Source of the DNA: an uncultured bacterium
GTDB taxonomy: Bacteria > Chloroflexota > Anaerolineae > J036 > Brachytrichaceae
Assembly (NCBI GenBank): GCA_903921365.1
Contig: CAIXPS010000576.1
Span: forward strand, 1-56,401
Direction: 5' to 3'
Length of the DNA stretch: 56,401 nucleotides
Shown: in pieces, positions 8,929-20,536 of the stretch
Position numbering within the stretch: the stretch's first letter is position 1
How the letters are laid out: every line of letters begins with the position of its first letter
Translations under genes and position numbers: made by a program
The notes under the pieces: model-generated
Seen by the model: only the letters and a program-made list of their open reading frames with translations
The model's database searches: none
Told to the model about the DNA's origin: nothing

Positions 8929-9981
8929 ATGAAAACCACAGTCTTTACCGGCCCACAGAAACTCGAAATACACGATGTCGCGCGCCCTGAATTACTACCC
9001 TCGCAAGTGCTTGTAAAGACGCGCGCGGTTGGACTATGCACGCTGGAGCAGCGCTTCTACAAGGGTAGTTCACCCGACAGTTATCCGTTCCTGGGCGGGC
9101 ACGAGGTGGCTGGCGAAGTGGTCGAGGTCGGCTCGCGGGCAGTGACCAGGGCGCGAGTCGGGGATGTCGTCTGTCTGGCGTTGTTGACCCGTTGCGGAAC
9201 TTGTTATTACTGCCGTCGCGGCATGGACAATCTGTGTATACACAACATGGAAAGCCGAATTGGCGAGCAGACTCCGGGCCCGGCGGGCTTGAGCGAGTAC
9301 GTCGCGGCAGAGGATTACCAGGTTTACACGACCGATCTGCCGCCCACATACGATGCCGACTGGGAATGCCGGTTGTGCGAGCTCGCGCTGGCTGAGCCAG
9401 TGGCTTGCGTGATCCGCAGCGCACAGACGCCCCCGTTGCATTTTGGCGATCTGGTGGTGGTGCAGGGCGCGGGCATCATGGGGTTGTTGCACGCACAACT
9501 GCTCAAGCAACGCGGTGTGCGCATCGTCATGGCGGAACCGGATCTGCGTCGTCAGGAGATGGCGCTGCAGGCGGGCGCAGATTGGGTTGTGGATCCATTG
9601 CACAAGAATCTGTCAGATTTTGTGCGCGAGCGCTCCGACGGCTACGGGGCAAATGCGGTCTTTTTCACCGCAGGCGGCGCGCCAGCAATAGAGCAGGCGC
9701 TCCAGGGCATGGCGAAGGGCGCGTGGTTGTGTTTGTATGGGTCGGTGCACCCAAAGGGGCCGATCCAGATCGACCCGAACCTGATCCACTATAACGAGTG
9801 GGTGGTGACAGGATCATTCAGCCACACCAATTCGAGCTTCCAGCAGGCAGTGGCGCTGATCGCGTCACGCAAAGTCGATACGGGGATGTTTGTCAGTGAG
9901 CGTGTGGCGTTCCCACAGGTGGACTATGCCTTCGAGCGCGCCATCAGTCCAGATACCTATCGCGTTGTCATGACCTTCTAG
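8929..9981 (+). CDS. Zinc-type medium-chain alcohol/polyol dehydrogenase
   Basis: 350 aa, MDR superfamily. The catalytic domain shows GGHEVAGEVVEVG (about 55-67), the structural-zinc loop CGTCYYCRRGMDNLC (about 87-101), and the nucleotide-binding fold VVVQGAGIMGLLHAQLLKQR. The residue run GLCTLEQRFYKG at the usual first zinc ligand keeps the Cys but not the common C-x-x-D, so the active site differs slightly from threonine or sorbitol dehydrogenases. It oxidises a secondary alcohol or polyol with NAD(P)+; the substrate is unknown. Monocistronic, divergent from the membrane glycosyltransferase, with a near-leaderless TATAAT promoter. Confidence 0.85.
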   Translation: MKTTVFTGPQKLEIHDVARPELLPSQVLVKTRAVGLCTLEQRFYKGSSPDSYPFLGGHEVAGEVVEVGSRAVTRARVGDVVCLALLTRCGTCYYCRRGMDNLCIHNMESRIGEQTPGPAGLSEYVAAEDYQVYTTDLPPTYDADWECRLCELALAEPVACVIRSAQTPPLHFGDLVVVQGAGIMGLLHAQLLKQRGVRIVMAEPDLRRQEMALQAGADWVVDPLHKNLSDFVRERSDGYGANAVFFTAGGAPAIEQALQGMAKGAWLCLYGSVHPKGPIQIDPNLIHYNEWVVTGSFSHTNSSFQQAVALIASRKVDTGMFVSERVAFPQVDYAFERAISPDTYRVVMTF

Positions 9982-10006
9982 CCAACTAGCCAATCTGACC
10001 AATGAA

Positions 10007-10020
10007 ATGACATTTGTCAT
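10007..10020. promoter_or_regulatory. Palindrome ATGACA-tt-TGTCAT
   Basis: A perfect 6-2-6 inverted repeat 26 bases after the alcohol dehydrogenase stop. It has the shape of a dimeric regulator site, but no start codon of a supported gene is close, so its role is unknown. Confidence 0.25.
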
Positions 10021-10350
10021 GCAAACATCAGTCACCCGTCACTTGAAGTCGCCATACTGGGATGATAGTATTCCGTTCAAGTAGCTACGCAGTTTCTGTC
10101 TAATCGGAACATAGTCGCTCGCCGCAATCATTATCACAATACACATCAGTATTCATCGGACTCCCATCGGTGCACAATGCCATCCATCGCTCTAAATTGA
10201 TCACCGTCGTTGTTTCATCACGACACATCACACTCCATCAAGCACATTGTTGTTTGTCGCTGTCTTATCGTAGCACGTTGTTTCACATGGCAACTCCATT
10301 GTCGCTCGCGGACCGCCACGCATCGTAGTTTTTACGTTATCCAGAACTGC

Positions 10351-10379
10351 GTAGCTACAGGTAAAATACCTGTGGCTAC
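10351..10379. other. Hairpin GTAGCTACAGGT / ACCTGTGGCTAC
   Basis: Arms 10351-10362 and 10368-10379 pair over 12 positions (one G-T) around a 5-base AAAAT loop. It lies 7 bases before a second, terminator-like hairpin. The two may form the 3' end of a small RNA. Confidence 0.4.
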
Positions 10380-10385
10380 AAAAAC

Positions 10386-10425
10386 GAACCCGCTGGAGTC
10401 AAACCCAGCGGGTTCATTTTATTTT
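10386..10425 (+). terminator. Rho-independent terminator
   Basis: GAACCCGCTGG (10386-10396) and CCAGCGGGTTC (10405-10415) form an 11-bp perfect stem with an 8-base loop, followed by ATTTTATTTT. The nearest plus-strand gene stop is 400 bases upstream, so it probably ends an unannotated transcript. An A-rich run before the stem could make it work in both directions. Confidence 0.65.
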
Positions 10426-10878
10426 GGCTCTCCTGACTCTGCCGGGAAATTCGATGATGCCCCGACCCTACCTTATCTCCCGTTATGACAACTTTCCCGT
10501 CAGTGTCGGCAGTGCCACACTATTTACATATCCTTAACATACAAGGCTTAGCATTAATGCATGCTCGCAATGCGAACAGCTGTCAAAAACGTAGCTAGTG
10601 GCGGGACGTGAACATAGAGAAAGCCCGTGCCGGTCAATTTCGCGCCGGAGTAGTTGCAGTGCGCGATTGGGCCATACGTGTCAGCGGGTTGTGCGCGCTG
10701 GCGCTGTTTGCCACCGGCGCCGTGATGAGCATCAGCGGATTCGCCACTGCTCACCGTCATGACAGGCATTGCACACGACACAGAGAATGCACATGATAAG
10801 TAATAATGAGTTCACCTTGCTCGTGGGCGGTAGTTTCGCCCCAGCCATCAATGAGCCAGCTTTCTGTGAGGTAATCCT

Positions 10879-11340
10879 ATGAAACCACGTTATGCAAAAC
10901 CACCCTATCAGCCGAAATGGATTCTGCAGGCGCAGGTCTGGCTGCTGCGCCGCCGCCTGTTTCCATCTTTTAACAAACAGAACATGATCATCACGACCAC
11001 CGGGCGCAAAACCGGCCGCAGCCATGCCGTGCCCATCGGTTTTGCGCGCGATGGCAACACCTACCTGGCCCTCAATATGGGCGGCAAGTCGCACTGGCAC
11101 ATGAATGCGCTGGCAAACCCGCGCGTGACCCTGGAGATTGATGGCCGGGTGATCGCAGCGCGCGCCGAACAGGCGCCGGTGGATACGCCCGAACGGCTCC
11201 AAAGGGTGCTGGACGTTTATCGCCGCGAGCGCCCCGGCATGTTTGAAGGCTTCATGGGCGTTTCGCTGGATGCTCCGATCCAGGAACTGATGGACATCGG
11301 CAAATACATGGCGTTTATGCGCTTCTACCCGTCAGATTAG
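10879..11340 (+). CDS. Deazaflavin (F420)-type nitroreductase-family oxidoreductase
   Basis: 153 aa, typical of the DUF385/Ddn split-barrel family. The hallmark TTGRKTGRSHAVPIGF (about 40-55) binds the cofactor phosphate, and LALNMGGKSHWHMNALANP (about 63-82) completes the pocket. Members reduce quinones, aldehydes or nitro compounds with F420H2 or a flavin; which cofactor applies cannot be told from sequence. GAGGT about 7 bases upstream precedes the ATG. It heads a tight plus-strand run with an NmrA-like reductase (20-base gap) and an MBL hydrolase (9-base gap), suggesting one operon for redox metabolism of a small molecule. Confidence 0.8.
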   Translation: MKPRYAKPPYQPKWILQAQVWLLRRRLFPSFNKQNMIITTTGRKTGRSHAVPIGFARDGNTYLALNMGGKSHWHMNALANPRVTLEIDGRVIAARAEQAPVDTPERLQRVLDVYRRERPGMFEGFMGVSLDAPIQELMDIGKYMAFMRFYPSD

Positions 11341-11360
11341 CTGCGTCGCCTGGAGGCATT

Positions 11361-12239
11361 ATGGCAGACACGATTCTCATCATCGGTGGCACGGGCATGC
11401 TGGGCGAGCCCGTTGCGCGCCGGCTGCGCGCCGGTGGCTATCACGTGCGCATCCTGACCCGCTCGCCAGACAAAGCGCGCGGGCGATTCGGTGTGGATTA
11501 CGAGATCGTCGCCGGTGATGTCACTGTGCCTGACTCGCTGGCGGGAGCGATGCGCGGCTGCCAGGGCGTGCATGTCAGTTTGCATGGTGACTCGGCGCCC
11601 GATTTGGAGCGCATCGCAGTCGTTAATGCGGTGCGAGCAGCCCTCGGCGCTTGCGTCCAGCACTTTACCTACCTGTCGGGGGCGTCGGTCATCGCGGAGA
11701 ACTGCTGGTTTTCCGATACGCGCGCCCGGTTTGAGGCCGAGGAGGCCGTCAAGGCGTCCGGTCTGCCCTATACTATCTTCAAAGCCAGCTGGTTTATGGA
11801 GTCACTAGACAGGTTTATCCATGGGCAGCGGGCTTTCGTTTTTGGCCCGCAGACGAAATCCTGGCACTGGATCGCTGCCGATGACTATGCGCGCATGGTG
11901 GCCGCAGCCTATGTGACCCCGGTGGCAGCCGGCAAAAGCCTGTTCATCTACGGCCCTGACTATTGCACCATGCGCGCAGCGCTTCAACAATACATTGCGA
12001 TCGCCCACCCCGGCGTGCGCCTCATGCCCATGCCATTCTGGGCTGCCGATCTCATGGCCAGGCTGGGCCGGCGGCGCGAGTTGCAAGCCGCGCTGCCTTT
12101 CTTTCGCTATTGCGACAAGGTGAGCGTGCACGAAGCAGGCGATCCGACCGAAGCCAATATACTACTTGGCACTCCAGATACGATGTTGGAGCTGTGGAGC
12201 AGACAAAAGGCAGCACAATCAGACTCATTAAACTTGTAG
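11361..12239 (+). CDS. NmrA-like atypical SDR, NAD(P)-binding
   Basis: 292 aa. The dinucleotide-binding start ILIIGGTGMLGEPVARRLRAGGYHVR gives the GGTGxLG signature at residues 7-13, and EIVAGDVTVPDSL the acidic strand typical of NmrA/YwnB proteins. HFTYLSGASV replaces the classical Ser-Tyr-Lys site, and YTIFKASWFMES is the usual YT.lR..fFmE segment. Such proteins are redox sensors or quinone or isoflavone-type reductases. GGAGG 7 bases before the ATG is a strong ribosome site. It is the second gene of the operon starting at 10879. Confidence 0.8.
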   Translation: MADTILIIGGTGMLGEPVARRLRAGGYHVRILTRSPDKARGRFGVDYEIVAGDVTVPDSLAGAMRGCQGVHVSLHGDSAPDLERIAVVNAVRAALGACVQHFTYLSGASVIAENCWFSDTRARFEAEEAVKASGLPYTIFKASWFMESLDRFIHGQRAFVFGPQTKSWHWIAADDYARMVAAAYVTPVAAGKSLFIYGPDYCTMRAALQQYIAIAHPGVRLMPMPFWAADLMARLGRRRELQAALPFFRYCDKVSVHEAGDPTEANILLGTPDTMLELWSRQKAAQSDSLNL

Positions 12240-12248
12240 GAGATAACC

Positions 12249-12962
12249 ATGCCACAAGAGATTAAGACCATCACATTTCCAATGCAAGCAGGCATCATCA
12301 ACATGGGCGTCACTAATTGCTACCTGTTAAAAGCCGCAGACAGCTACCTCCTGATAGATACGGCATTCGCTAATAAGCGCGCTGAGCTCGTAAAAGAACT
12401 CGATAGCGCAGGTTGTCGACCTGGCAATCTCAAACTCATCGTCATAACGCATGCCGACCTTGACCATACCGGCAATGGCGCGTATCTCCGCCAAAACTAC
12501 GGGGCAAAGATTGGTATTCACCGTTACGAAGCCGGTGTGATTGAAAATGGCGATTCCAGCCTGAGCAGAAGAAAGAGACCCTTACACGAAAGGATCCTTG
12601 GCGGAATCATCCTTGGCGTGCTTTCGTTGTTCTTCAGGTTTGGCAACTTCGAGCGATTCAGCGCCGATGTATGCGTCGACGACGGGGACGATCTGTCCGC
12701 ATACGGATTCGACGGGAAAGTGATTCATCTGCCGGGGCACTCCAGAGGTTCCATAGGCATCCTGACCAGTGCAGGTGATCTGTTTTGCGGTGACCTGCTC
12801 TGGAATATGAGCAAACCGGGCGCGCATTCCATCGTCGACGACGCGACGGAAATGCGCGCCAGTATTCAGCGACTTAAGAGCTTGGGCATAAAAACCATCT
12901 ATCCCGGCCACGGCCAGCCATTTTCGATGGACTCTTTCCTGGAAAATTACCAACCCAGATAA
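12249..12962 (+). CDS. MBL-fold metallo-hydrolase
   Basis: 237 aa. The metal site begins THADLDHTGNG (His68, Asp70, Asp72, His73), a common variant of HxHxDH in which the second His is Asp. Further ligands are HLPGHSRGS, the Asp of FCGDLLW and the terminal YPGHG. This is the general glyoxalase II/beta-lactamase hydrolase fold, acting on thioesters, lactones or similar. AGGAG lies 7 bases before the ATG. It is the third gene of the operon after the F420-type and NmrA-like genes, so its substrate is probably a product of those reductases. The replaced metal ligand hints at a specialised subgroup. Confidence 0.8.
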   Translation: MPQEIKTITFPMQAGIINMGVTNCYLLKAADSYLLIDTAFANKRAELVKELDSAGCRPGNLKLIVITHADLDHTGNGAYLRQNYGAKIGIHRYEAGVIENGDSSLSRRKRPLHERILGGIILGVLSLFFRFGNFERFSADVCVDDGDDLSAYGFDGKVIHLPGHSRGSIGILTSAGDLFCGDLLWNMSKPGAHSIVDDATEMRASIQRLKSLGIKTIYPGHGQPFSMDSFLENYQPR

Positions 12963-13214
12963 TGGCTTATGAGTCGCTCTTCCATTCCTTCTGGGCTGTC
13001 AGTCGAATATCGGCTTTTGATCTCCTACGAGTCAGCCAGAACTATGTCACCGCGGTAAAATCCGCAAATGTGCTTTTGCTGTGCCAACTCGCACTCGAGT
13101 CTATGGATATTGTCGGTTGGTCATCGGAGTTTGGCTTTTATTCAAAGGCACACATGCACAACAACCTGCCACAATAACGCGCAGTTACCTAATGGCCCAA
13201 ATGGAGTCGCACAA

Positions 13215-15233
13215 ATGAAATCAATTGTTGAAACAAGAAGCGGTTCACTGGATGTTCCTAAGCTCAAGCAGGCGGGAAAACCGGTTTGTAAGGACATTGA
13301 AAAAGCTGAAGCGTTTGCGGATCTGGAGAGAGGGGTGCATGCGGCGTTGGAGACATATTCCAACGTCCACCGCGGCAGCGGGCACAACTCGCTGGCGTCT
13401 ACGCATTTATACGAAAAGGCCAGGGAAATTGTCCTGGAATACCTGGGGCTGAGCAAAGACAACTACGTGGTCATCTTTTGTGCACCCAGGAGAGCAGAGT
13501 TGCTCAAGGCGCAACTCAGGCCCGGTAGCTATCAATGTGTTTCAAGCCAGGACATCGGCCTGTCACTGGGTGTAAGGGCATTGGCCGTCGAGAAAAAAGC
13601 CTTGCCCAAAGGCGCTCCTTTTCAGACGGGCGGAGGGACGGCCAGACTTGTCTCCCCGGATTGGGTCATATGGGCTAAGGCGCCGGATAAATTTGAGGCT
13701 GGCACACCCGCGATCATCAACATTATTGCCTTTGCCAAGGCACTACGGCTGATACAGCATTTTGGAAAAGATGCTTTTCAGGGTGTAACCACTGAAAAGC
13801 TGACAGCCACTGAAATCCTGTCCCACGATGAACTAGAAAAATACTCAGGTCAAGAGCTGTTGGCTCAACTCAGGCAGAGGCTGATTGGTCGTGGCATGCG
13901 TGTCCCGACGATGGAAGGCGCCAGGCCTTTTATCAATCTGGACAACGGCGCCAGCACACCGACATTCACGCCGATATGGGACGCTGTTTGTCAGACATGG
14001 GAGCAATCCAGGCAAACACAGCAAGAAATCATCCAGGAGGTCAAGTCCATCTGCGCCAGGGTACTGGGTGCGCCATTGACAGCCTATGATGTGATCTTTA
14101 CTGCGAACACCACCGACGCCATTAACCTGGTGGCCGAGAGTTTGCGCAATGAATCGGAGCCAGGCATCGAACCGGTCGTGCTGAATACGCTCCTTGAACA
14201 CAACTCGAACGAGCTGCCGTGGCGCATGATTCCTGGCTTTTCCCTGATCCGGTTGTCGGTGGACGCCGAAGGTTTTGTGGATATCAACGAGCTTGAGACG
14301 CTTCTGCGCGCATACAACCAGGAGGGCCAGCATGGGGAGAAGCGCATCAAGCTGGTGGCAATGAGCGGCGCTTCGAATGTCCTGGGCGTATTCAACAACC
14401 TGGCGGAGATCGGTCGAATCGCGCACCGCTATGGGGCGCGCCTGCTGGTGGATGCGGCACAGCTGGTCGCCCACCGCAAGGCCATGGTGGAAGAGTGCGG
14501 GATTGACTATCTGGCCTTTTCTGCCCATAAGGTGTACGCCCCATTCGGCAGCGGTGTGTTATTGGCAAGAAAGGGGCTCCTTCATTTCAGCAGCGCTGAA
14601 CTGGAGCTGATCCAATCGTCCGGTGAGGAAAATGCAGGCGGCATCGCCGCCTTGGGCAAGGCGCTCGTGCTTTTGCAGCGGATCGGTCTGGACGTGATCC
14701 AGGCGGAGGAACAGGCATTAACCGCGCGGGCATTACGCGGCCTGGCGGGCATACCGGGACTCAGGATTTACGGGATAAAGGAACCGGACTCGCCCAGGTT
14801 CGCCCAAAAAGGCGGTGTGATCGTCTTTGGCATGAAGGATATCGCACCCAACCGGGTGGCGAAAGAACTGGCCGGGCGAGGGGGCATCGGTGTGCGCTCT
14901 GGTTGCCACTGCGCTCACTTGCTGATCAAGCGCCTGCTTAATGTCGGTCCACGGCTGGAACGATTTCAAGGCATGATCCTGACCTTGTTCCCACAGCTCA
15001 GTCTGCCTGGCGTCGTCCGGGTGAGCCTGGGCATCGAGAACAGCGCGGAGGATATTGACACATTGATTCAAGTGTTGGGCAAGATCGCCCCGCAGCCTCG
15101 GGCTGAGGTGGACAGGCGCTCTGCCGCTACAGCCGAGGGAACACAAACCCTGTCCTTGAAGGATGTTCAACTCCAAATGGAAGATTTCGCCAAGGTTGCG
15201 GGCGAGAGAATTTATGGAATTGACTCTATATAA
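13215..15233 (+). CDS. Long class V aminotransferase / cysteine-desulfurase-like enzyme with extra N-terminal module
   Basis: 672 aa from the ATG at 13215, chosen because GGAG lies 8 bases upstream; an open frame reaches back to 13068 without homology. Residues 235-640 are a complete class V PLP domain: INLDNGASTPT at its start, VDAAQLVAHRK, SAHKVYAPFGSG with the PLP Lys439, and RSGCHCAHLL with Cys564/Cys566 at the catalytic loop. In front lie about 230 residues that begin like a second class V domain (ETYSNVHRGSGHNS, REIVLEYLGLSKDNYVVIFC) and then stop, so the protein looks like a partial plus a full copy. PLP chemistry on a cysteine-like or amino-acid substrate is expected; 252 bases separate it from the MBL gene. 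Confidence 0.8.
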   Translation: MKSIVETRSGSLDVPKLKQAGKPVCKDIEKAEAFADLERGVHAALETYSNVHRGSGHNSLASTHLYEKAREIVLEYLGLSKDNYVVIFCAPRRAELLKAQLRPGSYQCVSSQDIGLSLGVRALAVEKKALPKGAPFQTGGGTARLVSPDWVIWAKAPDKFEAGTPAIINIIAFAKALRLIQHFGKDAFQGVTTEKLTATEILSHDELEKYSGQELLAQLRQRLIGRGMRVPTMEGARPFINLDNGASTPTFTPIWDAVCQTWEQSRQTQQEIIQEVKSICARVLGAPLTAYDVIFTANTTDAINLVAESLRNESEPGIEPVVLNTLLEHNSNELPWRMIPGFSLIRLSVDAEGFVDINELETLLRAYNQEGQHGEKRIKLVAMSGASNVLGVFNNLAEIGRIAHRYGARLLVDAAQLVAHRKAMVEECGIDYLAFSAHKVYAPFGSGVLLARKGLLHFSSAELELIQSSGEENAGGIAALGKALVLLQRIGLDVIQAEEQALTARALRGLAGIPGLRIYGIKEPDSPRFAQKGGVIVFGMKDIAPNRVAKELAGRGGIGVRSGCHCAHLLIKRLLNVGPRLERFQGMILTLFPQLSLPGVVRVSLGIENSAEDIDTLIQVLGKIAPQPRAEVDRRSAATAEGTQTLSLKDVQLQMEDFAKVAGERIYGIDSI

Positions 15234-15339
15234 TAGGCAAGTGTGCTGAACCTACTTTCGGGCCGTTCCTCGCTGGATAGACAACCCCATCCGGCAAGCT
15301 CCGATTTGCTGTTAAGCCTGTTACTGAAGTGAAGATACC

Positions 15340-17088
15340 ATGAGAAAGAATAGTAATTTACTCATCTGCGTTACGCTGGGCAGCCTGATTTTAGGCGCTT
15401 GTGCGCCGTTCTCCCGAGTCGGTTCGGGAACCACGGCGCCAAATATATCCTCAGACAAACAATTGAATATCTTCATCGGTTCCGAACAGGAGCCGACCAT
15501 GTTGACAATCGTCCAACCCTGGTGCACACAGCAGGGCTGGGATTGCCAATACCGTAAAAAGGGTTCGGTTGACCAGAAGACGATTCTTCAGGGAGGCACT
15601 TATGCCGACTCCGATGGCTGGGTGGGCGACAGTTTCTGGTTTGCCTCCAGCGTGTGGCCTACGATTGGCGACACCAAAGGTGTGCTGCGCGACAAAGAGT
15701 CCATGTATCTTTCCCCAACCGTCTTTGCCACCTGGAAGCGAATCGTTGCTGCCAATGGCTGGGCAGGTAAAGCATCCATACCTGTCACCGATATCTTCAA
15801 CGCTGCCAAGATCAACGGCTACAAGTTCTGGTGGAGTAATCCAACACAGAGTAATAGCGGCGCAACAGGATACATTTCACTGAATACCGCTGTAGCGGGC
15901 AACGCGCCAGGCGTGCCCCTGACTATGGCCCAGGTAAATGATCCGGCCATTCAAGCGAAAATTCAAGAATTCGTCCGTCTCATCGACCATACCAGTCCAT
16001 CAACGAAAGACGTCACCGATAATTGTGTCGCTAATCCTGATCGTTGTGACGGTGTATTTACCTACGAAAGCACCTTGATACAGGAAAATATTGCACTCGT
16101 GGCTGCTGGTAAAGAACCACTTGTCGCTGTCTACCCCGATGAGATCGCCCTTAATGACAGCTATCTGACCTTTGTCCCTTCCAAACCCATGACTGACAAA
16201 GCCGTGCAGGACAAGGAAACATTCTTCCTGTCTCTGCAAAAGTACCTGAAAACAAGCGAGGCCATCAACAAGCTCCTGGGGCTCGGCTGGCGCGCCGGTG
16301 ACAATCCAATGGATTTGAAGTCTGCTGACGCGAGCGTGTTTAATCCTGCCTGGGGCATTGAAACGACGATCACCCAGGCGCCCATCGCGTATCCGGCGGC
16401 GGATGTTATCACGACCCTTTTGTCGCTGTATCAGACATCCTTCCGTCGCCCCGTCGACGCGATATATTGTCTGGATACGAGTGGATCGATGGGCGCCGGC
16501 AAGCCGGACTCGCGCTGGTCGCAGGTCGTTCAAACGATCAAAGTCGTTTTCGACAAAGCCGAAGCCGAAAGGTATCAGATACTGACTGGCCCGCAGGATC
16601 TCACCCAGGTGCTTTTCTTTACCGATCGGCCCAATTACCGGTCTGCCGTGGTTGTTGGTGACAACTATGACGCGCTTGGCAGCCTCTATAACGATGTAGC
16701 CAGCAATACGCGTTCTGGGAATACAAACATCTATTCATGTCTTGAAGAAGCTTTGCTGCAATACGCTAAAGCCGATTCTGGAAAGCCGTTACACCCCGAT
16801 ATGCCAGAGCGTCGTCGCGTCATATTCCTGATGACTGACGGACAAAGTGAAGGTAGCCCAGCCGCTTTCCTTGACAGCGTCAAGAAAGCATTCGACGGAA
16901 AAATCACCGTCATCGCTATTGGATTCAGCAATGAAGCCGATGGTGTTCAGCTGCATTCAGTCGCCAATCCAACTCAAGGCACAGTGATTTATACCGACAA
17001 AGACGCTTATAGCACCGATCATCAGACAAACAAGCTGCTTGCAGCCGACTTCAGCGAAGCCATGAAGTTCGCCCTCGGATACAAGTAA
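15340..17088 (+). CDS. Lipoprotein: substrate-binding-like domain fused to a von Willebrand A domain
   Basis: 582 aa. The signal peptide ends in LGAC with Cys21, so the mature protein is lipid-anchored outside the membrane. Residues 40-350 resemble a type II solute-binding protein (FIGSEQEP, SNSGATGYIS, TYESTLIQENI, VAVYPDEIALND). Residues 372-570 are a vWA domain with the complete MIDAS start DTSGSMG (Asp379), a later Thr in RSGNTNIYS and Asp in FLMTDGQSEG. The first domain is visibly related to the 383-aa protein two genes downstream. It opens a four-gene operon ending in a TelA homologue. A sensing or assembly role at the cell surface with metal-dependent adhesion is inferred. Confidence 0.85.
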   Translation: MRKNSNLLICVTLGSLILGACAPFSRVGSGTTAPNISSDKQLNIFIGSEQEPTMLTIVQPWCTQQGWDCQYRKKGSVDQKTILQGGTYADSDGWVGDSFWFASSVWPTIGDTKGVLRDKESMYLSPTVFATWKRIVAANGWAGKASIPVTDIFNAAKINGYKFWWSNPTQSNSGATGYISLNTAVAGNAPGVPLTMAQVNDPAIQAKIQEFVRLIDHTSPSTKDVTDNCVANPDRCDGVFTYESTLIQENIALVAAGKEPLVAVYPDEIALNDSYLTFVPSKPMTDKAVQDKETFFLSLQKYLKTSEAINKLLGLGWRAGDNPMDLKSADASVFNPAWGIETTITQAPIAYPAADVITTLLSLYQTSFRRPVDAIYCLDTSGSMGAGKPDSRWSQVVQTIKVVFDKAEAERYQILTGPQDLTQVLFFTDRPNYRSAVVVGDNYDALGSLYNDVASNTRSGNTNIYSCLEEALLQYAKADSGKPLHPDMPERRRVIFLMTDGQSEGSPAAFLDSVKKAFDGKITVIAIGFSNEADGVQLHSVANPTQGTVIYTDKDAYSTDHQTNKLLAADFSEAMKFALGYK

Positions 17089-17100
17089 AGGAAGAAAAAA

Positions 17101-17793
17101 ATGCAGACCAAAAAGCCACCGCTTATCATCCCGGACTGGGCGGACTGGGTGCTCGCACTGATTGCAGCTGTTGGTGTCTGGCGCTTTATAGACACAAGCA
17201 TTCTCCCGACCACCAACGTGCTTGTTACACTGGTGACTCTGGTCGTCAAGCTGGTGATCGTGATCGTCACCTACTTTCTCGTCTGGGTCATTGTTCGAAC
17301 ACTCGCGGAGCCATCTCGACTTTATGTGCAGGGGCTCAAGATATTGAACCAAAGTGTCAATCCGAATCTGGCTATTTTGCGAGAACAACTGAGCAATCTC
17401 CAGAGGCTACAGGCAGGTGATCAAAGAGCCATACGTTCTGACATTGACATCCTATCAAAAGCACTCGCGATAACGAATGAAAATGTGATTCATGTGCTTT
17501 TGGAACAAAGTGGGATAACACTTTTCAATGGCATGGTCGATATTCGCTCAAAAGTAGATGCACTGGCCAAGTTAGTGCCTGGACATGTCAGGCTGCTCAA
17601 AAACCCCGAGCTGGTGGCCGATTTCGACAGCAAGGTTGCTGAAAACCGCCGGGGATTGCAGGGCTATCTTGAGTTTATCGAAGATGAAGCCAGGCGAGTT
17701 TCATCCGGAGAGATTTTCTCCATGACCACTGGAGCCAGAATGCTCAGTGCTCTGGTAAACGTGCTTCCTCTGGGAGGGACGAAACAATCATGA
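17101..17793 (+). CDS. Membrane protein with two helices and a cytoplasmic helical domain
   Basis: 230 aa, not recognised. Two hydrophobic segments (about 14-32 and 40-66, VLVTLVTLVVKLVIVIVTYF) anchor it; the rest is charged and helical with heptad-like stretches (LREQLSNLQRLQAGDQRAIRSD). Thirteen bases follow the vWA gene stop and contain AAAGGAAG, a good ribosome site. Its last four bases overlap the next gene (ATGA). Placement between the two extracytoplasmic binding proteins and upstream of a cytoplasmic TelA-like coiled-coil protein suggests that it links the two compartments. Confidence 0.75.
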   Translation: MQTKKPPLIIPDWADWVLALIAAVGVWRFIDTSILPTTNVLVTLVTLVVKLVIVIVTYFLVWVIVRTLAEPSRLYVQGLKILNQSVNPNLAILREQLSNLQRLQAGDQRAIRSDIDILSKALAITNENVIHVLLEQSGITLFNGMVDIRSKVDALAKLVPGHVRLLKNPELVADFDSKVAENRRGLQGYLEFIEDEARRVSSGEIFSMTTGARMLSALVNVLPLGGTKQS

Positions 17794-18941
17794 ACAATAA
17801 GAAAGTCATTATTCCGGTTGTGCTGTTGGTGCTTGTCATTGCCGTTGTGGGACTGCTGCCGACGCTTCAGACCACCCTGCAGGCAACGATACCGCCGACT
17901 GCCGTGGCGCTCCCTACAGCAACACCTGTCACACCCACCACCGTCACTTGTTTCATCGGTTCTGAAAAGCAACCCTTACTCAGCGATCCTGATGTAACGA
18001 AAATCATGGCGGACAAGTATCAACTGACTGTGGTCTACAAGACAAAAGGATCGATGGACCAGGTCACGTTACCCGCAGACCAGTTAAAAGACACTGATTG
18101 CCTGTGGCCGTCAAATATCAGCGCCTCATTGTTGTATCAGAGACTCAACCCATCGTTCAAGGGTTCACCGGTGCCGGTGTTGTATTCAGTCTTGGTGGCT
18201 TACGTAAAAATCGAGGCTCGTGATGTGCTGGTCAAGCAGGGATACGCCGAAAAGCGCGGCGACCAGTATTTCATCATCAAGATGAATGAGCTGGACACAA
18301 ACGTCATCCTGGCTGGCAAAACCTGGACCGATCTTGGAGCCTCGACGCTCAAAGGGCCGATTAAGTTTCAGTCGACTGACGGCGGAAAATCGAACAGCGG
18401 TTTTCTGACCTACGCCCTGCACGCCAACATTGCCGGTGGCGACGCTTACACCCCGGCCTCTATTGATAAAGCGTCCACGATTTTGCCAGCCATCAAGAAG
18501 CTGAAGGATCTCCAGGGTCTGCAATTTGCCGGCAGCGAAGATGTTTTTAATAACTGGTTTTCCACGCGGGGTTTTTCTGCGCCGATGTTGATGGCCTATG
18601 AAAGCCAGATACTGGAGAAAAGCGTTACCGATCCGGACGGCATCAAGTCAAACTACGGCTCGGCAATTTACATGATGTATCCGGAGCCGACAGTCCAGAG
18701 CGTGCACGTGATTATTCCGCTTACATCCAATGCCCAGCGGCTGATTCAAGCCATGCAAGACCCCGACATCCAGGCGATTGCCTGGAAGAAACATGGGTTC
18801 CGCTCATTGACGGGTGCGTCAAACGACCCAGCCGCTTTCCCGCTGGTCTCAGTGCCGCAGAATGTCGTTACCACCGATCTCCCATCGGTAGACATGATCC
18901 AGAAATTGTTGGACTGCTTACGCGACAACCTTTGCCAGTAA
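17790..18941 (+). CDS. Membrane-anchored substrate-binding-like protein, paralogue of the vWA protein's first domain
   Basis: 383 aa. A single N-terminal helix (KVIIPVVLLVLVIAVVGLL) without a lipobox anchors it; a Pro/Thr-rich linker follows (TPVTPTTV). The body shares FIGSEKQP, KTKGSMDQVT, GKSNSGFLTYA, MAYESQIL and MYPEPTVQS with matching positions in the 582-aa vWA lipoprotein, so the two arose by duplication and fusion or loss of vWA. The start overlaps the stop of the membrane-protein gene in ATGA. A type II binding-protein fold in a periplasmic or exocellular position is inferred; no ABC permease is encoded nearby, so import is not the evident role. Confidence 0.8.
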   Translation: MNNKKVIIPVVLLVLVIAVVGLLPTLQTTLQATIPPTAVALPTATPVTPTTVTCFIGSEKQPLLSDPDVTKIMADKYQLTVVYKTKGSMDQVTLPADQLKDTDCLWPSNISASLLYQRLNPSFKGSPVPVLYSVLVAYVKIEARDVLVKQGYAEKRGDQYFIIKMNELDTNVILAGKTWTDLGASTLKGPIKFQSTDGGKSNSGFLTYALHANIAGGDAYTPASIDKASTILPAIKKLKDLQGLQFAGSEDVFNNWFSTRGFSAPMLMAYESQILEKSVTDPDGIKSNYGSAIYMMYPEPTVQSVHVIIPLTSNAQRLIQAMQDPDIQAIAWKKHGFRSLTGASNDPAAFPLVSVPQNVVTTDLPSVDMIQKLLDCLRDNLCQ

Positions 18942-19067
18942 GGGACATCCCGTTGACGATCAGTTATTCGTTGTTGAAACCAGATTCATGTTAGTTTAGT
19001 CAAGTAGATACCCTTTTCCGGGGGTCTTGTAATCAACCGTTTGTAATTCAATAAAGGAGAATCACTC

Positions 19068-20330
19068 GTGGAAACCTATCAACTTCCTGCACTTCCCGAT
19101 TCGTTCGCAAATGCCGCTCCTCAGGCGCCAACGACCGCTGCCGGGCAGGATACCAAGACTGCGCTCACAACCCAGACCACCTTACAGCTCAGTGTGTCAG
19201 GACCAACTTATGAAGCCAGCACACATATACCGGCTAGTCGGTTGGCACAAATTACCACCTGGGCGCAAGCGTCAGTGCGCAGCAAAAACTTTACTTCTCA
19301 ATGGCTGGCTACCTATGCCCGCGGCATCGGACTTGATACGAGCCTGCTCGACATGGTCGTCAAAAACACAACGGCGCTCAATGCTGGCGAAGTCGGCGAC
19401 CTGACACTTCAGGCTACCCGGCTGATGGACCAGGTGAATAACAAAATCCCCAAGAATGTGGTCGACGCGCGCTTTATGCAGCAGGTCCAGCAACAGAAGT
19501 TGCGCATCGAACAGATCATTAGCAAGGTAAAAGCGATCAGTCAGGCCATTGAAGACGCCTTGCGCAAGTACCAGAGCCTGGCGGTTCCGATCGCCGAAGT
19601 GCGCGCCAAGTTGCAGGAGAAGTATGACCTCATGTTTGAGGCCATCGTCCTGAACCAGCAGTTGGCTGAAAAGGAAGATCAATCGACCGATATTCTGGTA
19701 AGCAAGACGGCAGAATTGGAAATCCTGGCGAAGTCACTCCCCGCGTATGTGGCTGAATTGCGAGCGAAGAAAGATCAGCCGGAAGCCGATAAGGACGCTT
19801 TGGACGCCGAGATCAACCGGCTCAACGGGATGATGCCGTTGATTACCAAAGCCCTCTCCATGCTCAAGCCGATGATCTTCACCGGCAACAATGCCGTCGG
19901 GCGCTACCTCAACCTGAGCAACATGGCCGGCGGTCGCGCTATGGTTCTGGGACTCTTTATTTCCGTCGGCATGTACCGCTGGGAATCGGACATTGTCACC
20001 CAACTTCAGGAAATGAACCAACTGGCGGTTGGGTTGGCTGAATCCAATATTGAAGCGGTCATGAATCAACAGGCGCAAGCATCGTCTGCCGGTTACGTGA
20101 GCGCCGTCCAGGACTATATGGACATGCTCAACCGCTGGACAACCACTGTCGCCACCTTGCAGCAAATCGTCGACGATACCGCAAAGGCGCAGGACATTCT
20201 AACCAAGGGCTTTGCACAGTTGAAGTCAGAGTATGGCAAGACCAGCAGCGTTGTCCAGGATGCGTTCACCAAGGTTCAGGCCAGCCAGCAGGCCTATAAC
20301 CTTGAGATGGAGCGCATCGCTGCGGCATAA
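19068..20330 (+). CDS. TelA-family protein (toxic anion resistance)
   Basis: 420 aa starting at GTG, with AAAGGAG seven bases upstream. The sequence has the long helical, Gln-rich layout of PF05816: SLLDMVVKNTTALNAG, LMDQVNNKIPK, then coiled-coil stretches (QQKLRIEQIISKVKAISQAI) and the conserved centre LKPMIFTGNNAVGRYLNLSN. Family members occur in tellurite and stress (Ter-type) clusters; the biochemical role is not settled. Here it ends a four-gene operon with a vWA lipoprotein, a membrane protein and a binding-like protein, 126 bases after the third gene. The vWA-TelA link is known from Ter systems; the substrate-binding partners are the unusual part. Confidence 0.8.
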   Translation: METYQLPALPDSFANAAPQAPTTAAGQDTKTALTTQTTLQLSVSGPTYEASTHIPASRLAQITTWAQASVRSKNFTSQWLATYARGIGLDTSLLDMVVKNTTALNAGEVGDLTLQATRLMDQVNNKIPKNVVDARFMQQVQQQKLRIEQIISKVKAISQAIEDALRKYQSLAVPIAEVRAKLQEKYDLMFEAIVLNQQLAEKEDQSTDILVSKTAELEILAKSLPAYVAELRAKKDQPEADKDALDAEINRLNGMMPLITKALSMLKPMIFTGNNAVGRYLNLSNMAGGRAMVLGLFISVGMYRWESDIVTQLQEMNQLAVGLAESNIEAVMNQQAQASSAGYVSAVQDYMDMLNRWTTTVATLQQIVDDTAKAQDILTKGFAQLKSEYGKTSSVVQDAFTKVQASQQAYNLEMERIAAA

Positions 20331-20380
20331 CGGCAATTCATTCGCTGATCAGGCAGATGCGGAGATAGCGTAAGCGCGAA

Positions 20381-20422
20381 GAGACTCAAGAAGCGCGCCG
20401 GCGTGGTGTCGCCTTGAGTCTC
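20381..20422. terminator. Long-stem hairpin after the TelA operon
   Basis: GAGACTCAAG (20381-20390) pairs perfectly with CTTGAGTCTC (20413-20422) around a 22-base GC-rich loop that can itself pair in part. There is no T-run, so it may be a factor-dependent terminator or an mRNA-stabilising end. Confidence 0.4.
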
Positions 20423-20536
20423 TGTCGGAGGGTGCTACTACTTGGGGTGCGCGCACATGCGCGCATACGCGACGGTTGCCGGGTTAATGGATTTTAACGG
20501 GTATGATTAAGCGAAATCTTCCAGGACAAGGAAAAT

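Follow-up and report, generated by a model that had tools for sequence, protein, structure and literature searches.

In this study, we have described a four-gene cassette carried by an uncultured bacterium of the family Brachytrichaceae (Chloroflexota, Anaerolineae; NCBI GenBank assembly GCA_903921365.1, contig CAIXPS010000576.1), at positions 15340 to 20330 of a stretch of 56,401 nucleotides (nt) that is referred to throughout as the window. Its genes are evident as, or strongly predicted to be, two binding proteins outside the cell (the first held by a lipid anchor and joined to a von Willebrand factor A (vWA) domain with a metal site, the second helix-anchored), a protein with two transmembrane helices and an XpaC-like cytoplasmic tail, and a soluble helical protein. 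To judge from sequence, the cassette is a plausible envelope stress sensor, recurrent in several bacterial phyla and often associated with TelA, and the best reading of it, to which we give about as much credence as doubt, is that of an envelope sensor or scaffold module feeding stress proteins of the XpaC and TelA types. The four genes are the following:

15340..17088, + strand: gene 1, a lipoprotein with a type II solute-binding-protein (SBP) domain (about residues 38-372) and a vWA domain (about residues 368-582)
17101..17793, + strand: gene 2, a membrane hairpin of two transmembrane helices whose C-terminal domain is predicted to be cytoplasmic and whose rank and slot mark it as XpaC-like
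17790..18941, + strand: gene 3, a second solute-binding-like protein with an N-terminal transmembrane helix as anchor
19068..20330, + strand: gene 4, a soluble protein of 420 amino acids, predicted to be all-helical, in the slot of TelA, an identity that its sequence does not support

The four open reading frames (ORFs) were confirmed at these coordinates and, as a first-pass annotation made from the letters of the window had noted, they share one strand and lie close together or overlap, with spacings of +12, -4 (an overlap) and +126 nt between genes 1 and 2, 2 and 3, and 3 and 4, respectively. Genes 2 to 4 are each preceded by a purine-rich, ribosome-binding-like sequence; a promoter scan was uninformative.

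Gene 1 is the part of the cassette that is best defined. The annotation had proposed a vWA domain fused to a binding-protein-like domain, placed outside the cell and anchored by lipid, and this description holds, its location being a prediction. A lipobox (LGAC, with C21) is present in gene 1 and falls within the first 60 residues in 28 of the 34 rows of the alignment of its family, and the vWA domain is recognised by Pfam (PF00092, 46.9 bits, cut-off 23.8), which reports no binding-protein domain in the sequence of gene 1 itself. D379, S381, S383, T462 and D500, which we take to be the complete metal-ion-dependent adhesion site (MIDAS) of the vWA domain, are present in all 34 rows, and E49, N167, P168, S171, N172, G174, Y242 and E243 of the binding domain are equally invariant. 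An AlphaFold model built from this alignment (mean predicted local distance difference test score, pLDDT, 86.5; predicted template-modelling score 0.86) was compared with known structures by running VIA-align on candidates from Foldseek. Residues 38-372 match the sulfate-binding protein 5um2 (Z 25.5, root-mean-square deviation (rmsd) 3.6, 287 residues aligned), followed by 1sbp (sulfate-binding; Z 25.3), 2qry (thiamin-binding; Z 25.1) and then other binding proteins, with ferric-binding proteins also among the best neighbours, and residues 368-582 match the vWA domain 6fpy_B (Z 22.2, rmsd 2.2, 185 aligned), the matches also including vWA domains of the adhesion type, for example those of von Willebrand factor (A3) and CMG2. 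As modelled, residues 38-372 have the type II periplasmic binding protein fold; since the Z-scores of 5um2, 1sbp and 2qry tie, the class of ligand is not readable from the fold. SBP_bac_11 (cut-off 25) does match relatives that align with gene 1 from end to end, with 62 bits in L063, from a Deinococcales bacterium, and 40.5 bits in L057, from Nocardia yamanashiensis.

A second, distant gene of the same fusion type lies elsewhere in the same genome (G000:C522:7463-9049; L044:7373-9058; 28% identity). It is a cassette of a different design, in which the neighbours are an NMT1-like binding domain followed by an OmpA-like region below the cut-off, a protein with one transmembrane helix and a pyridoxal-phosphate-dependent decarboxylase.

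Gene 3 is homologous to the binding domain of gene 1 and is anchored in the membrane by its sole hydrophobic stretch (residues 1-32), so that the paralogue named in the annotation is indeed present. Aligned by hhalign with positions 17-350 of the SBP-vWA profile, which hold the binding domain, it scores 99.0% (E 2.8e-18), and two disjoint gene sets match profile to profile at 100% (E 5.4e-52). In our reading of the alignments, the GSE-, SNSG- and YES-type motifs of gene 1 recur in gene 3. The syntenic gene of Ktedonobacteria has 39% identity (E 8.4e-75 for the one in L038), and among 60 relatives matches to gene 3 were confined to its own genome. The structure matches of gene 1, the hhalign result for gene 3 and the SBP_bac_11 matches of relatives thus agree on a periplasmic-binding fold for the binding-like parts, the point on which the annotation had staked its proposal.

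The two-helix membrane protein was also correctly perceived: gene 2 has hydrophobic stretches at residues 8-26 and 33-71, followed by a soluble tail. No Pfam family reaches its cut-off in gene 2, and PF10112 (Halogen_Hydrol), the family of XpaC-like proteins, gives no match. In Ktedonospora formicarum (L038, the same place as L055), however, the gene in the same slot matches PF10112 with 47.3 bits (cut-off 29.8), and among 26 chosen genomes this family is over the cut-off in two and under it in two more, every match being a gene of the cassette. When 5195 ORFs were searched with a profile of seven two-helix proteins from the sister clade (Ktedonobacteria and Nocardia), from which the window was excluded, gene 2 was the best hit outside the members of the profile (E 0.0062); its hhalign score is 42.6%, and none of 40 shuffles exceeded 3.0%. 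Disjoint sets of the two-helix families match profile to profile at 52.2% (E 1.4e-4), with controls no higher than 0.2%. A broad profile of the family built without gene 2 misses it (E 65 with the database size fixed), and the narrower sister-clade profile is the only one to find it. Two higher scores were set aside, one of 3e-14 from the broad profile, which had gene 2 itself among its seeds, and one of 99.6% between profiles, which was circular as one set contained the other. The hit with the sister-clade profile and its hhalign score give a weak but specific signal that gene 2 is related to the XpaC-like proteins of PF10112.

For gene 4, the annotation had gone further than the sequence allows by naming it TelA. 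PF05816 (TelA) has no match in gene 4 up to E 1 and none anywhere in the genome; a hidden Markov model built from five TelA proteins does not match it; hhalign against TelA gives 0.5% at best, against up to 1.5% for reversed gene 4; and local alignments with 12 of 37 TelA proteins, assessed by windowed shuffles, give a mean z of 0.7, against 1.6 with reversed TelA. The TelA label is therefore positional. These in-house negatives are weak, however, because the same hhalign and alignment tests, as a positive control, mostly fail to link the TelA of Ktedonobacteria to other TelA, though Pfam does so at about 65 bits: in the two nearest syntenic cassettes the gene in this slot is TelA by PF05816 (65.3 bits in L038 and 64.5 in L039, cut-off 30). 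Gene 4 may be TelA-like by its slot, order and strand, by its length (420 amino acids, against 436-437 for the TelA of Ktedonobacteria) and by a low-confidence single-sequence model that is all-helical (pLDDT 47.8). The contrary view, that it is an unrelated helical protein that has replaced TelA or simply sits downstream, is possible, though in our judgement on the doubtful side. The silence of every sequence test, the gap of 126 nt before the gene and its isolation speak for it, as a search for relatives at E 1e-5 among 400 Chloroflexota genomes returned gene 4 itself, and none were found in genome_contigs, plasmids, phages or viral contigs; the agreement with the sister-clade TelA in slot, order, strand, approximate length and helical make-up, and the extent to which TelA diverges, speak against it. 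Matches of gene 4 in the PDB were dismissed as chance coiled-coil similarities to viral spike proteins (E 0.06 or worse), and comparison with PHROGs and PADLOC gave weak coiled-coil matches alone (PADLOC E 0.0017 or worse); genes 1 to 3 have no match among the PADLOC models.

The conservation of the cassette was assessed at 57 loci found in the gene-1 alignment scan from one degenerate peptide pattern, which is blind to the neighbouring genes. Those with flanks of no less than 3.5 kb on the upstream side and 3 kb on the downstream side were scored (42 of 57), the 15 with short flanks being dropped, and two TelA of Ktedonobacteria that the profile missed were added to the TelA count by hand. 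The second binding protein is present at all 42 scored loci, the two-helix protein at 36, TelA at 21 and all four at 21; on the sequence available, the 15 dropped loci have 11 of each of the three partners. The records come from Actinomycetota, Chloroflexota/Dormibacterota, Deinococcota and Pseudomonadota, and the neighbourhood, whose conservation had been the annotation's other stake, is thus kept well beyond Chloroflexota. The commonest order, seen at 18 of the 42 loci, is SBP, TelA, SBP-vWA and two-helix protein. Another order, SBP-vWA, two-helix protein and SBP, followed by gene 4, TelA or nothing, is that of the window, of two Ktedonobacteria and of five Nocardia, all of which fall on the same side of a branch with a support of 100 in the Shimodaira-Hasegawa-like approximate likelihood ratio test (a quick tree of 70 rows, to be read with a warning of long branches). 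The five Nocardia copies share the same three genes, and their flanks mostly differ (L057 and L061 have flanks in common). As the cassette is kept across relatives, and these three genes stay constant while most flanks change, its conservation is independent of context. PF05816 matches were found in 14 of 26 genomes picked by hand from the 57, and in none of the other 12, which include all five Nocardia.

Since half of the scored cassettes do without TelA, we take the core to be the binding pair with the two-helix protein, and TelA to be one of its outputs. In other Chloroflexota (L045, L046, L047 and L050), a deeper SBP-vWA branch is accompanied by a second binding protein and often by a two-helix protein of about 245 amino acids, with no TelA, which suggests that the three genes of the core were together before TelA became associated with them. 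When the genes lying up to 5 kb away were clustered for up to 61 loci, no fifth gene recurred, apart from synteny in the Frankia lineage and generic ABC ATPases, ORFs of the latter kind occurring at nine of these loci. No permease recurs near the cassette in this set and none adjoins it in the window, as the annotation had stated; because no permease belongs to the cassette, it is not a transporter.

The components are members of known families and the SBP-vWA fusion has already been named by NCBI, while the cassette as a system is without a description that we could find; our literature searches did not cover the 2012 Ter review or the Listeria TelA paper, where an earlier description is possible. 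The nearest named relatives are a Variovorax plasmid cassette and one of Sphaerotilus, both with the order SBP, TelA, SBP-vWA and two-helix protein. They are annotated in plasmid records as 'toxic anion resistance protein' with 'substrate-binding and VWA domain-containing protein' or 'vWA domain-containing protein', and they share the SBP, SBP-vWA and two-helix genes with the window but begin with the SBP where the window begins with the SBP-vWA gene, gene 1 being about 24% identical to its Variovorax counterpart. In Variovorax sp. SRS16, a gene with a flotillin domain precedes the cassette (L033:809-2551), and genes for JetA (Wadjet), DUF4194 and an SbcC/MukB-like protein follow it within a few kb (L033:12562-17476). 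One record filed as a plasmid, NZ_LT559118.1 (L035; Nonomuraea gerenzanensis), looks like a chromosome at 11.85 Mb.

A second point of comparison is the XpaC-TelA pair of Firmicutes. Passages from the literature place xpaC and yaaN (TelA) in one operon of the core sigma-W regulon of Bacillus subtilis (PMC3498285) and describe lmo1966-lmo1967 of Listeria as XpaC- and TelA-like proteins, a mutant disrupted in lmo1967 being more sensitive to nisin and tellurite (PMC12791056). The XpaC name is likewise used in passages on Lactococcus (PMC7864038), Listeria (PMC12791056) and Enterococcus (PMC10269926); according to two of these papers, the mechanism of Listeria TelA is not known and the roles of XpaC-like proteins are unsettled (PMC12791056, PMC7864038). 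Like this pair, the cassette sets a PF10112-type membrane protein beside a TelA-type helical protein, both Pfam families being found in the sister cassette L038; unlike it, genes 2 and 4 of the window do not reach PF10112 and PF05816, and the passages on the Firmicute pair mention no binding-protein or vWA genes with it (PMC12791056, PMC3498285).

The companionship of vWA domains and TelA in Ter clusters, invoked by the annotation, stands in so far as TerF, the vWA protein of Ter, is listed beside TelA among the components of sub-membrane structures (PMC7824862). The arrangement differs, since in the window the vWA domain is joined to a binding domain and its export is predicted. That no other Ter genes are present holds for TerD (PF02342), with no match in the whole genome; TerB and TerC were not searched for. 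With the sulfate-type periplasmic binding proteins (1sbp, 5um2), finally, gene 1 shares the fold of residues 38-372 (Z 25.3-25.5) but has 13-14% identity, a vWA fusion and no transporter, and thiamin-binding 2qry ties with them (Z 25.1).

In the reading that we favour, the two binding domains would capture a small extracellular ligand, the nearest folds including binders of sulfate, thiamin and iron, and ligand binding would alter the docking of the vWA domain, through its metal site, to a partner at the membrane surface, for which gene 3 (the second binding protein) and gene 2 (the hairpin protein) are candidates. The hairpin would carry the signal to the cytoplasm, where TelA or a stand-in may organise a membrane-tolerance response, by analogy with the proposed role of the Firmicute XpaC-TelA pair under envelope stress. 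The annotation's idea of an envelope-spanning sensor or scaffold is retained as far as the layout outside, in and under the membrane is predicted by the sequences, and it is weakened where it leaned on TelA. Several points do weigh against a module feeding XpaC and TelA: none of the sequence tests identifies gene 4 as TelA, TelA is not in the cassette in 21 of the 42 scored relatives, the core can exist in genomes with no PF05816 match at all (12 of the 26 chosen), and the link to XpaC of B. subtilis goes by the gene name used in papers, the PF10112 control giving matches in Lactococcus lactis and none in the B. subtilis control genome. A more ambitious version, which we regard as doubtful, is that of a horizontally moving envelope signalling module in which ligand capture by the fused binding domain outside the cell would switch the vWA domain, which in turn would control the XpaC-type hairpin and a fast-evolving helical protein of the cytoplasm. 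TelA would then be one of several interchangeable outputs, and gene 4 would represent another, a new family in the same slot.

Other roles for the exported proteins must also be weighed. They could act as a surface sponge for a toxic anion, a metal complex or a peptide, with the membrane and cytoplasmic proteins being secondary, a view that we consider unlikely. The presence of two paralogous binding domains in all 42 scored cassettes would suit such sequestration, as would the sulfate-, thiamin- and ferric-binding proteins among the best structural neighbours and the annotation of TelA as a toxic anion resistance protein, but the tied Z-scores do not give a ligand class, and a sponge needs neither a vWA domain with a metal site invariant in all 34 rows nor a conserved membrane hairpin. 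In another view, the vWA domain would bind a surface protein partner through its metal site, in adhesion or assembly, the binding-protein fold being a structural spacer; the complete MIDAS and the similarity to von Willebrand factor A3 and CMG2 would agree with this, yet the residues invariant throughout the binding domain and the motifs that recur in gene 3 fit a functional cleft better than a spacer, and we hold this role to be distinctly unlikely. Least probable of all, in our view, is that these are ordinary orphan binding proteins serving an ABC importer encoded elsewhere: the extracellular binding-protein fold and the SBP_bac_11 matches of relatives are what such proteins would display, but the vWA fusion, the fixed pairing of two paralogues with a two-helix protein, the lack of a recurrent permease and the small share of loci with a generic ABC ATPase nearby are not.

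TelA and XpaC are widely annotated stress proteins, and the cassette ties proteins of these types to dedicated exported binding proteins, whose ligand would make the signal sensed by them testable. As the core of two binding proteins and a two-helix protein is often found without TelA, TelA is likely to be an output of the module and not its centre.

The cassette belongs to a longer segment that separates the window from related genomes:

9982..20492, no strand assigned: a segment of about 10.5 kb with the cassette and upstream genes, delimited by blastn and blastp of the flanks against same-genus genomes

From the zinc-dehydrogenase gene (8929-9981) to glnA, the next gene downstream of the cassette, the distance is about 0.6 kb in three same-genus genomes (L112, L113 and L114) and about 10.5 kb in the window. 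The comparison of three genomes alone gives no polarity; gain of the segment is favoured over loss because the subfamily is rare in the class sample, where its own genome is the only one of 396 to carry it (E 1e-30); in the Ktedonobacteria-type class it occurs in 2 of 47 genomes. The cassette has a G+C content of 0.52, against 0.58 in the rest of the window. No tRNA was found in the window, nor flanking repeats of at least 16 nt at the ends of the segment. The source assembly is of 6.88 Mb in 603 contigs, and since glnA is 93, 92 and 85% identical to its counterparts in the three same-genus genomes, the contig is genuinely part of this genome and not contamination.

The genes of the window around the cassette are unrelated to it. 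Within the segment they include genes for F420H2-dependent reductase-like, NAD-binding, metallo-beta-lactamase-fold and class V aminotransferase proteins. An ORF of 721 amino acids at 13068-15233 is overlapped by another of 71 amino acids and is unsure in its start position; no match accounts for its first 300 residues, and its class V aminotransferase match is best over residues 314-666.

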